From Bradyrhizobium sp. AZCC 1610 (GTDB lineage: Bacteria; Pseudomonadota; Alphaproteobacteria; Rhizobiales; Xanthobacteraceae): a stretch of DNA of 64,000 bases. The stretch spans positions 591,001-655,000 of the forward strand of contig NZ_JAZHRR010000001.1 in NCBI RefSeq assembly GCF_036924515.1, given 5' to 3'. Shown here in pieces: positions 40,440-45,279 of this stretch (the stretch's first letter is position 1; every line of letters starts with the position of its first letter). The position numbers and the translations under genes are program-made. A model generated the notes under the pieces. That model worked only from the letters and a program-made list of their open reading frames with translations, had not been told where the DNA came from and did not search any database.

Positions 40440-42226
<1,787 letters not shown>

Positions 42227-42258: not shown

Positions 42259-42555
42259 TCAGCTCAGCACGCCCATGATGTCGGACTCCTTCATGATCAG
42301 GAGTTCCTCGCCGTCGAGCTTGACCTCGGTACCCGACCATTTGCCGAACAGCACGCGGTCGCCGACCTGAAGGTCGATCGGAATCAGCTTGCCGGCCTCG
42401 TCGCGGCCGCCCGGGCCCACGGCGGTGATTTCGCCTTGCGACGGCTTTTCCTTGGCGCTGTCGGGAATGATGATGCCGCCCTTGGTCTTCTCTTCGGCAT
42501 CGATGCGCTTTACCACGACGCGGTCGTGCAGCGGACGAAATTTGGATTTAGCCAT
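42259..42555 (-). CDS. groS: Co-chaperonin GroES (Hsp10)
   Basis: The product has 98 residues: [19 protein letters not shown] at the start, the mobile-loop [16 protein letters not shown], and a C-terminal [17 protein letters not shown]. It caps GroEL. The conserved MAKSKFRPL start fixes ATG 42555; the frame open upstream has no homology. The CIRCE operator and promoter lie 111-178 bp upstream. Confidence 0.98.
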
Positions 42556-42665
42556 GACGTCTCCTCTTGAAGTTCCTTTGGAAGGCGTGGTTTCAGGTCT
42601 GTGCCATCGAAAATGGCTGGGAATACCGGGTATTCGACGCCGCCCCGGGCGGGGCAGCACGACCC

Positions 42666-42692
42666 TTAGCAATCTTTGTATTTGAGTGCTAA
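42666..42692 (-). promoter_or_regulatory. CIRCE element (HrcA operator) of groESL
   Basis: On the minus strand TTAGCACTC-N9-GATTGCTAA, i.e. the CIRCE consensus with exact 9-bp spacing and one mismatch in one arm. It lies between the promoter and groES, so HrcA should repress groESL and heat should relieve it. Confidence 0.92.
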
Positions 42693-43456: not shown

Positions 43457-43565
43457 GTCATGCCCCGCCAACGGGTCGCGCGAATGCGCGCCCGATGACA
43501 GGCTCCGGCGGGGCATCCAGTACGCCGCGGCTTCTCCGCTGAATCGCTGACGTCTCTGGAATACT
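43457..43565. repeat. Left half of a dispersed palindromic repeat, split by the IS element
   Basis: GTCATGCCCCGCC pairs with GGCGGGGCAT (43507-43516), and the element continues through CCAGTACGCCGCGG to CTCTGGAATACT at 43565, where the IS begins. The expected continuation GGATCGCCCGCC is found on the other side of the IS at 45280. Confidence 0.8.
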
Positions 43566-43684
43566 TGTATGGGGGTGATCAAGAGTGATCGTTGTCAGAT
43601 CATTGCTGTCGTCTCCTTGTTCGACGAAGACCGACATCTCCTCGTCCCGACCCCGAGACGACTAGCCGCCTGGGCGGAACGACG

Positions 43685-43729
43685 GTCAAGGGTGGCCGCA
43701 GGCCATCGCGGAGCGACGCAGCCCTTGAC
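43685..43729. other. Three-way-junction palindrome inside the IS noncoding end
   Basis: GTCAAGGG (43685-43692) pairs with CCCTTGAC (43722-43729) and encloses two perfect hairpins, TGGCC-GCA-GGCCA and TCGC-GGA-GCGA. The arrangement is exact and can form a compact Y-shaped RNA or DNA fold. It lies in the long noncoding end of the IS element. Confidence 0.7.
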
Positions 43730-43824
43730 GGTCGTGAGCCCGGCGGCAGGCTTGAGGGCGGGACGAGGTTTGGCGTTAGCGGCATAGGGACGATTTCCGA
43801 GGCGAGCCCACCGTGGACGCGATA

Positions 43825-43985
43825 CCGCGTCGCAGACTTGTATTCGGTTGATCGATCGGGACCAGAACCATGATGCATGCATGCGCATCGGGGGGCGAAG
43901 CTCCGGGGCGGCGGGTCCATTCTGGGTCGCGGCGCAAAGGCCATGTATTCCGGCGGATCACCGCCACCTCGGATGTCGTCGGCAG
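43825..43985 (-). ncRNA. Candidate guide (bridge/seek) RNA of the IS element
   Basis: IS1111-type elements are known to encode a guide RNA in the end downstream of the recombinase. On the minus strand this stretch has GGTGATCC (pairs with the right target flank GGATCGCC with one G-U), then GGAATAC (same as the left target flank) 3 nt later, and further along ATACAAG (complement of CTTGTAT at the element's own left end). Limits are only a guess around these three sites. Short matches by eye are not proof. Confidence 0.35.
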
Positions 43986-44036
43986 ACTGCCGGCTGCTGA
44001 ACCGTCAATCGTGTTGGAGTTGCGGAAGCTGCATGG

Positions 44037-45209
44037 TCAAGTGCCGGCCGGGCGCAGCCTGAGCCCCTCAGTTATCTCGCCGGTGGTTGCCAGCCGCCAC
44101 AGCGCGATGAGCAGCTTGCGCGCCAGCGCCACGATCATGGTTTTGCGCGTGGTGCTGCGGCCATCCGCTGTGCGCTCGCGGAACCAACGGACGAGCCGGC
44201 TATCCTTCTGGAAGATCAGAAAGCGCCAGGCCAGTTGGATCATGCCGCGGCGGACCCGACCGTTGCCGGCGCGGGCCAGTCCCTTCTCGCGGTGGCGCTT
44301 GCCGCTTTCGTCCGGCGCGCCGGTTAGTCCGGCATAGCGCGCCACGGCTCTGCGATCACGCAGATTGCGCACCAACGCCTCATTCACCAGCATGTCGGCA
44401 GTCTCGATGCCGACGCCAAAAACCCTTGCGATCAGACGCACCATCGCGTGAGGACCTGTCGCAGCCGCCGGCGCAACAGCGGGCCGGCGCACCCGTTCGC
44501 TCTCGATGATGCGGATCTGGTCGCGCACCAGGCGCAGCCGCTCCAGATCGTGGCGCAGCTCCGCGTCGGCATTCTGCGGCAGCGGCGTTCCTTCCGCGGT
44601 GCGCAGCGTCGCAAGCTTCTGCGCCGCCTTGCGCAGCTTCGGATTGAACCCGCCGATGCCGAACAGGGCGAGGACACCCTTGATCCGGTTGACGATCCGT
44701 GTCTGCTCGCCCACGAGGCTCTCCCGTTCGCGGCTCGGCCGCCGCGCATCTTCTTCTGCCATGGTCGGGATCGCGACCATGCTGCAATGGCGCTTCTCGC
44801 CATGCAGCCAGCCGAGAAACGATCGCATCAGCAGTTCCGTGTCGATCCGATCGGTCTTGGCGCGCCGGTGCTCGCGGGACACCGCAATACTCGCAGCATG
44901 GATGACGTAGGTCTCGATGGCGCGCGCCTGCAGCCAGCGCGCCAGCCAGAATCCGTCTCGCCCGGCCTCATAGGCGCAGACGATCCGCCTGACCGTCCGC
45001 CCGGCCTTGCGCGCTTCATCCTGCCAGCGCTGCAACAGCTTCAGCAGAGCGTCCGCATTTGCACCAAGCTTCTTCAGGGGCTGGCGCTCGACCCCCGGGA
45101 TCACAGCCGCAACGAGCCACTTCGACTGGCTCATCTCGATCACTGCGACCAATGTGCTATCCTGTTCGAAGGCGGTGAGGGACCTGCTGGCGTCAAACGA
45201 TTGCGACAT
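44037..45209 (-). CDS. IS110-family transposase (DEDD recombinase)
   Basis: The product has 390 residues. The N-terminal RuvC-like DEDD domain includes VAVIEMSQSKWLVA with Glu25 at the position usually held by Asp, AYEAGRDGFWLARWL (Glu81), and KTDRIDTELL (Asp120/Asp123). The C-terminal Transposase_20 domain has FGVGIETADMLVNEA, RYAGLTGAPDESGKRHREKG with the conserved Ser, and GNGRVRRGMIQLAW. It cuts and rejoins DNA guided by an element-encoded RNA. ATG 45209 has GGAG 8 bp upstream; ATG 45221 is an alternative. The frame is intact. Confidence 0.95.
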   Translation of the reverse strand: MSQSFDASRSLTAFEQDSTLVAVIEMSQSKWLVAAVIPGVERQPLKKLGANADALLKLLQRWQDEARKAGRTVRRIVCAYEAGRDGFWLARWLQARAIETYVIHAASIAVSREHRRAKTDRIDTELLMRSFLGWLHGEKRHCSMVAIPTMAEEDARRPSRERESLVGEQTRIVNRIKGVLALFGIGGFNPKLRKAAQKLATLRTAEGTPLPQNADAELRHDLERLRLVRDQIRIIESERVRRPAVAPAAATGPHAMVRLIARVFGVGIETADMLVNEALVRNLRDRRAVARYAGLTGAPDESGKRHREKGLARAGNGRVRRGMIQLAWRFLIFQKDSRLVRWFRERTADGRSTTRKTMIVALARKLLIALWRLATTGEITEGLRLRPAGT

Positions 45210-45279
45210 GGGGTGCTCCATTGCGTGATCACGGCGCTCGAGGGCATTCACACCCTCGCCGCCGCTCCCCATAGCATCT

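Follow-up and report, generated by a model that had tools for sequence, protein, structure and literature searches.

The window, a stretch of 64,000 nucleotides from Bradyrhizobium sp. AZCC 1610, contains an insertion element whose recombinase gene and 471-nt noncoding end both lie on the minus strand (Table 1). The host genome is a single contig of 7.75 Mb. In addition to its Pfam assignments, the recombinase matches the NCBIfam model NF033542, "IS110 family RNA-guided transposase", with 164.3 bits against a cut-off of 140, and a sequence search against solved structures at 1e-3 returned no match. The family name DEDD leads to the expectation of aspartate as the first conserved acidic residue; the residue found is glutamate (E26) throughout two alignments of relatives (20 of 20 and 26 of 26), and its position is presumably among the catalytic ones. 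Just upstream, on the minus strand, two genes judged by eye to be groEL/groES-like chaperonin genes were observed (40440-42086 and 42259-42672), the smaller of which has two further partial matches in the genome search.

Table 1. Features of the element and of its noncoding end, in coordinates of the window
Feature	Position	Strand	Basis or remark
Insertion element, both copies of the 2-bp core AG (CT on the plus strand) counted	43564..45279	-	alignment of 12 copies
IS110-type recombinase, 391 aa	44037..45212	-	Pfam DEDD_Tnp_IS110 and Transposase_20, above cut-off
Left end in the sense of the recombinase: core AG, ATGC, TATGGGG; 3' arm = right donor	45267..45279	-	aligned copies
Right end: CCCCATA-CA-AG; left donor = ATACA and core AG	43564..43574	-	aligned copies
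Bridge/seekRNA, span covered by covariance model R1 (true RNA ends may differ)	43787..43983	-	comparative alignment
GGTGATCC, structural, not a guide	43955..43962	-	no flank tracking; 5/8 bases helical
Right-target guide (RTG) GGAATAC, pairs with right flank GTATTCC (sense of the recombinase)	43945..43951	-	tracks right flanks in relatives
Left-target guide (LTG) GCGACCCAG, includes core AG; same sense as left flank GCGAYCCAG	43922..43930	-	tracks left flanks
Hairpin GATGC..GCATC; 3' arm GCATC (43872-43876) = candidate right-donor guide (RDG)	43872..43889	-	co-varies with left end
Left-donor guide (LDG) ATACAAG, same sense as right end ATACA-AG	43837..43843	-	invariant, 16-sequence alignment
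Second hairpin GTCAAGG..CCTTGAC, model R2	43652..43764	-	conserved across IS110 lineages
TTGATC, -35-like box that circularization would bring next to a -10 in the left end	43577..43582	-	TTGA[CT] kept in relatives

The extent of the element was established from 12 copies identified by a search of the genome, among which identity ends at the core on both sides, the AG being present at both junctions in all 12; with a single core copy, the element measures 1,714 bp. The 11 other copies are 94.5-97% identical to the window copy over the aligned region, and the full 391-residue recombinase is matched in one piece in 8 of the 12. Every copy occupies the same position, in the same sense, of the palindromic repeat GGGCGAYCC-AG-TATTCCAGAG. 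The joined pattern corresponding to an unoccupied target occurs at 12 places in the same genome with up to two mismatches, two of which are exact; of the possible empty sites picked by repeat similarity, L043 is without an insertion sequence and L044 contains one that has diverged. The CCCCATA of the right end is a perfect 7-bp inverted repeat of the TATGGGG of the left end, set 6 and 2 bp from the ends if the core is included on the left side; distances of 7 and 3 bp result only from trimming the repeat to 6 bp. Among relatives, five held-out elements were observed with GG or AA instead of AG at the right junction; in three of them (L299, L300, L360) the left junction is still AG, and in the remaining two (L349, L317) the left end was not found. 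A mismatch in the core may be tolerated.

Within the noncoding end, downstream of the recombinase, relatives of the same genus share one conserved stretch, which matches the coordinates of a candidate guide RNA proposed in a first-pass annotation of this DNA. The consensus fold obtained from an alignment of 16 distinct relatives comprises 41 pairs, 8 of which show double changes, and 96.9% of the cells pair, compared with 36-46% in controls whose pairing partner was shifted by 1-3 columns. In 66 distinct relatives from named genomes, fitted to the covariance model R1, 95.2% of the cells pair, double changes are found in 20 of the 41 pairs, and the shifted controls collapse. A search of the window against Rfam at gathering scores found nothing. 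Thermodynamic folding of the minus-strand end, which the annotation had put forward as a check, gave a divided result: the whole 471-nt end is more stable than its shuffles (z -3.27), whereas the 231 nt around the RNA are as stable as theirs (z -0.07), and this shorter fold was discarded as evidence. Because the 231-nt fold of the lone sequence is no better than shuffles, the RNA structure rests on comparison. In the consensus, helices 1 and 2 enclose an internal loop, the 5' strand of which contains the RTG, while the 3' strand contains the LTG, placed after a small hairpin UGGC..GCCG; the first G of the LTG is paired in this small hairpin and its other eight bases are free. The window copy's GGAATAC falls within alignment columns 34-41, and GGTGATCC occupies columns 22-29.

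Both target guides follow the flanks of the elements that carry them. Of the 80 sources searched for the first set, 61 were tabulated and the 19 with weaker scores (≤50.2 bits) were left out; the end motif was found at 47 left and 52 right ends, which yielded 15 and 24 guides once duplicates were merged. The LTG agreed with its own flank at 4.60 of 6 positions compared with 1.82 for the flanks of other elements, and the RTG at 5.00 of 7 compared with 2.57, each with 0 of 20,000 permutations; permitting G-U pairs left the outcome unchanged. This set is not independent, because the guide position had initially been spotted by eye in part of it. For the held-out test, the guide columns, end motifs and score were set in advance, and loci in named genomes were chosen by the recombinase alone, 80 being kept of 114 confirmed. 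R1 was applied to 68 of these 80 loci and matched 65, with a lowest score of 75.6 bits; exclusion of nine loci from Bradyrhizobium or Taklimakanibacter left 56, which provided 40 left and 49 right ends and, after collapsing, 29 and 36 distinct guides. Own-flank agreement was 4.83 of 6 versus 1.61 for the LTG and 5.69 of 7 versus 2.46 for the RTG. When only guides new with respect to the first set were retained (6 left and 2 right guides being shared), the values were 4.78 versus 1.62 (23 guides) and 5.65 versus 2.47 (34 guides), and in all four comparisons the permutation count was 0 of 20,000. Together, the two sets contain 38 distinct left and 58 distinct right guides from elements with readable flanks.

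The correspondence extends to single bases. Guide GTCTTGAG accompanies flank CTTTTGAG in L371, and guide GTCATGAG accompanies flank GGCATGAG in L342; the two left guides differ at one base and the flanks at the corresponding base, the recombinases of these two elements being 91% identical and other flank bases beyond the matched part differing as well. A swap of whole guides is seen between L119 and L120, whose recombinases are 89% identical and in which both guides and both flanks are different. The agreement is also imperfect in places: one of six LTG positions of the window copy is mismatched to its flank, and the first core base faces an A in the RTG instead of a T. Among the held-out elements, misfits were recorded for the RTG of L375 (0/7), L330 (2/7) and L343 (2/7) and for the LTG of L299 and L348 (3/6 each); in L343, as in L116 and L222 of the first set, the bases match after a frame move of one or two bases, which the score disallowed.

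It is highly probable (about 0.93) that this element of the IS110 family carries, in its 3' noncoding end, the gene for a bridge/seekRNA that reads both target flanks and that, together with the recombinase, would bring about excision of the element as a circle and its insertion at the repeat. The sequence-based parts of this reading are the element ends and core, the RNA structure with its compensatory changes, the co-change of guides and flanks, and the identity of the donor guide. In the proposed mechanism, a second, multibranched domain of the RNA with the same layout (GCAUC-AUGG..hairpin..ACCG-AUACAAG) would read the element's own joined ends, and integration of the excised circle by recombinase and RNA together would take place at the AG core within the repeat TATTCCAGAG/GGCGAYCC. 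By analogy with the family, we infer circle formation, a promoter at the junction, processing of the RNA from the recombinase transcript and the order of pairing during recombination. What had been a guess made by eye becomes a measured case of natural reprogramming, single-base co-change included.

The second RNA domain likely reads the donor ends. ATACAAG, which the annotation had named as the donor guide, keeps this role as the likely LDG: it is identical, letter for letter, to the right end with its core, and it does not vary among the 16 aligned relatives, which makes it uninformative for co-variation. On the other side, the left end and the candidate RDG were compared in a two-by-two table of 35 rows collapsed by left guide, in which ATGC ends occur with GCATC 21 times and with GCTTC 0 times, and AAGC ends occur with GCTTC 11 times and with GCATC 3 times; four further collapsed rows, with ATAC, GTAC or ATTC ends, show an RDG mismatch. 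The stem of the RDG hairpin itself co-varies in both the 16- and the 66-row alignments, and the co-change can also be read as upkeep of this stem; since the RDG bases form a co-varying stem in any case, donor reading is likely rather than proven. It is conceivable, if unlikely, that the guide RNA is encoded as described and the donor is read by protein and inverted repeats, with ATACAAG and GCATC being structural. The seven ends that mismatch their own RDG (three AAGC and four others) suit such a division of labor, as do the invariance of ATACAAG and the position of GCATC in a conserved hairpin, but it does not account for the letter-for-letter sharing of ATACAAG with the right end, for the 11 cases in which left end and RDG have changed together with ATGC-GCTTC at 0 of 35, or for the layout C-AUGG-hairpin-CCG-guide-AG common to both domains.

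Regarding the target side, the annotation's general proposal of an element-encoded RNA, downstream of the recombinase, that reads both target flanks and the donor end is supported by comparison, and the three minus-strand segments on which it was built (GGTGATCC, GGAATAC and ATACAAG) are placed as it claimed. GGAATAC, proposed as a target guide, proved to be the RTG, situated in the segment that tracks the right flanks of relatives. The further claim that GGTGATCC and GGAATAC together constitute the two target guides is very improbable: although GGTGATCC adjoins GGAATAC and can form eight pairs, one of them G-U, with the right target flank GGATCGCC, it shows no tracking of flanks across the 15 elements whose left guides are distinct, five of its eight bases lie in consensus helices 1 and 2, and the left flank is explained by a neighboring segment. 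Scored as a guide, GGTGATCC agreed with its own left flank at 1.53 of 6 positions versus 1.38 for others, a difference equaled in 5,499 of 20,000 permutations, and it was rejected. The true LTG GCGACCCAG, located some 20 nt closer to the 3' end of the RNA, was absent from the annotation, as were the extent of the RNA and the candidate RDG.

How easily such segments arise was gauged by shuffling the dinucleotides of the 471-nt end 5,000 times. A segment able to pair over 8 nt with GGATCGCC, G-U included, turned up in 834 of the shuffled sequences; GGAATAC was present in 66 and ATACAAG in 27. At least one exact 7-mer matching one of the flanks, read in one sense or the other, turned up in 4,105, and a segment pairing with GGATCGCC within 25 nt of GGAATAC in one. 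As matches found by eye alone, the segments are weak evidence. The annotation's expectations that guide segments would vary with the flanks of elements inserted elsewhere and would lie in loops held for GGAATAC, in the internal loop, and failed for GGTGATCC, which lies partly in helices. The annotation had also remarked that two of the sites resemble each other, a resemblance that follows from the layout shared by the two RNA domains. As GGTGATCC illustrates, a short segment adjoining a true guide can mimic a guide by chance. Scarcely credible is an explanation without any guide RNA, in which the recombinase recognizes the palindromic repeat and the similarities reflect shared ancestry of element end and repeat, since the residence of all 12 own copies in one palindromic repeat, a kind of target used by IS elements of several families according to PMC1525189, is outweighed by relatives that have other guides matching their other targets, by recombinases 89-91% identical that nevertheless have different targets with matching guide changes, and by the held-out guide-flank test, which contradicts recognition by protein alone.

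Besides the bridge/seekRNA, the noncoding end holds the second hairpin, which sits between the guide RNA and the right end and, in 15 sequences, has 21 pairs, 8 of them with double changes. Within the genus, 24 of the 40 genomes have matches to R2; for the order, searched with stricter filters, the figure is 8 of 199. Of 36 loci examined, 25 adjoin one of four recombinases, which are pairwise about 25-30% identical in longer local alignments, and L258 and L269 share an end stretch of such hairpin-bearing elements. The hairpin has the opposite sense to the gene in the IS621-like lineage, and several relatives of the present element, whose right end comes within 100 nt after the RNA, have no room for it. 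One tentative interpretation, held with little confidence, is that the hairpin is an accessory cassette of RNA-guided elements, exchanged among IS110 lineages with recombinases only about 25-30% identical, in either orientation at the downstream end, and serving a common step; if so, this step might be to terminate or protect the transcript ahead of the circle junction. Seven others of the 36 hairpin loci (L261, L262, L263, L268, L270, L272, L279) have long common flanks and no IS110 gene nearby, and the open frame adjoining it in L261 is lytic transglycosylase-like by eye. An IS621-like IS110 element (324 aa) was noted in the same genome at G000:C1:3271, 666887, 1875550, 3669921, 4023222 and 7321419; it carries the second hairpin in the opposite sense, and L236, L239, L242, L245 and L246 cover five of the copies.

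All 81 distinct right ends collected from relatives have TTGA[CT] in the 40 nt that precede the last CCCATACA, against 2.6 expected, and the motif mostly stands 22 nt before the core. It could serve as the -35 box of a circle-junction promoter, by analogy with the junction promoter on the circular form described for this family in PMC11187229.

In IS1111 elements the RNA lies downstream and the match to the top strand precedes that to the bottom strand, and in IS110 elements the arrangement is the reverse, with some IS110-type elements having a downstream region (PMC11187229). The present element is a member of the IS110 family in the broad sense and is IS1111-like in RNA position and guide order. 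Its recombinase combines the RuvC-like DEDD domain with Transposase_20, a short core is common to target and donor, and the loops of its noncoding-end RNA match and change with both target flanks, as expected of the broad family. The upstream noncoding region and leading bottom-strand match of the narrow IS110 group are lacking; the long noncoding region and RNA are downstream (R1 in 65 of 68 loci), and the RTG, the top-strand match, lies 5' of the LTG on the minus strand. Subterminal inverted repeats, set back by 7 (or 6) bp at one end and 3 bp at the other, characterize IS1111; the spacing observed is 6 and 2. The element is filed under broad IS110 because, despite its IS1111-like position and order, its recombinase of 391 aa falls outside 330-350 aa. 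A literature search, mostly of sources outside subscription journals and preprints, found no paper naming this element group. The group combines IS1111-like RNA position and guide order with a longer recombinase, and therefore its guide rules and two-domain layout are testable as a new recombination scaffold.

The element adds to the known RNA-guided IS110/IS1111 kind, for which co-variation of guide and target has been described, together with multibranched donor domains in many IS1111 RNAs (PMC11208160). It resembles the IS1111 seekRNA elements ISEc11, ISPa11 and ISKpn4 in the noncoding region downstream of the recombinase, in the top-strand match 5' of the bottom-strand match and in inverted repeats set back from the ends, and it differs from them in recombinase length (391 versus 330-350 aa), in the 471-nt noncoding end with an extra hairpin and in the perfect 7-bp inverted repeat, theirs being usually 11-13 bp (PMC11187229), within a range of 7-17 bp given for IS1111 in PMC11208160. 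The REP-like target is shared with ISPa11 (PMC11187229), and IS110 members have been found in REP repeats (PMC1525189). With IS621 and the bridge RNA of the IS110 group, it has in common the recombinase family, the 2-bp core of target and donor and a two-domain RNA with LTG/RTG and LDG/RDG, whereas the RNA here lies on the other side of the gene, the guide order is reversed and the donor domain is multibranched (PMC11208160); identity to the IS621-like protein of the same genome is low, 31.5% over 111 aa. The nearest named relatives among the matches listed (plasmid rows) are ISRel9-type transposases, with which the recombinase is 42% identical over 93%, a comparison of proteins alone. Finally, ISPpu9 of Pseudomonas putida, likened here by description, is an IS110-family element with an AG repeat at its insertion point in REP sequences and with a downstream-encoded RNA that has the orientation of the gene and is optional between copies, but this downstream RNA has been studied as a regulator (PMC8450116).
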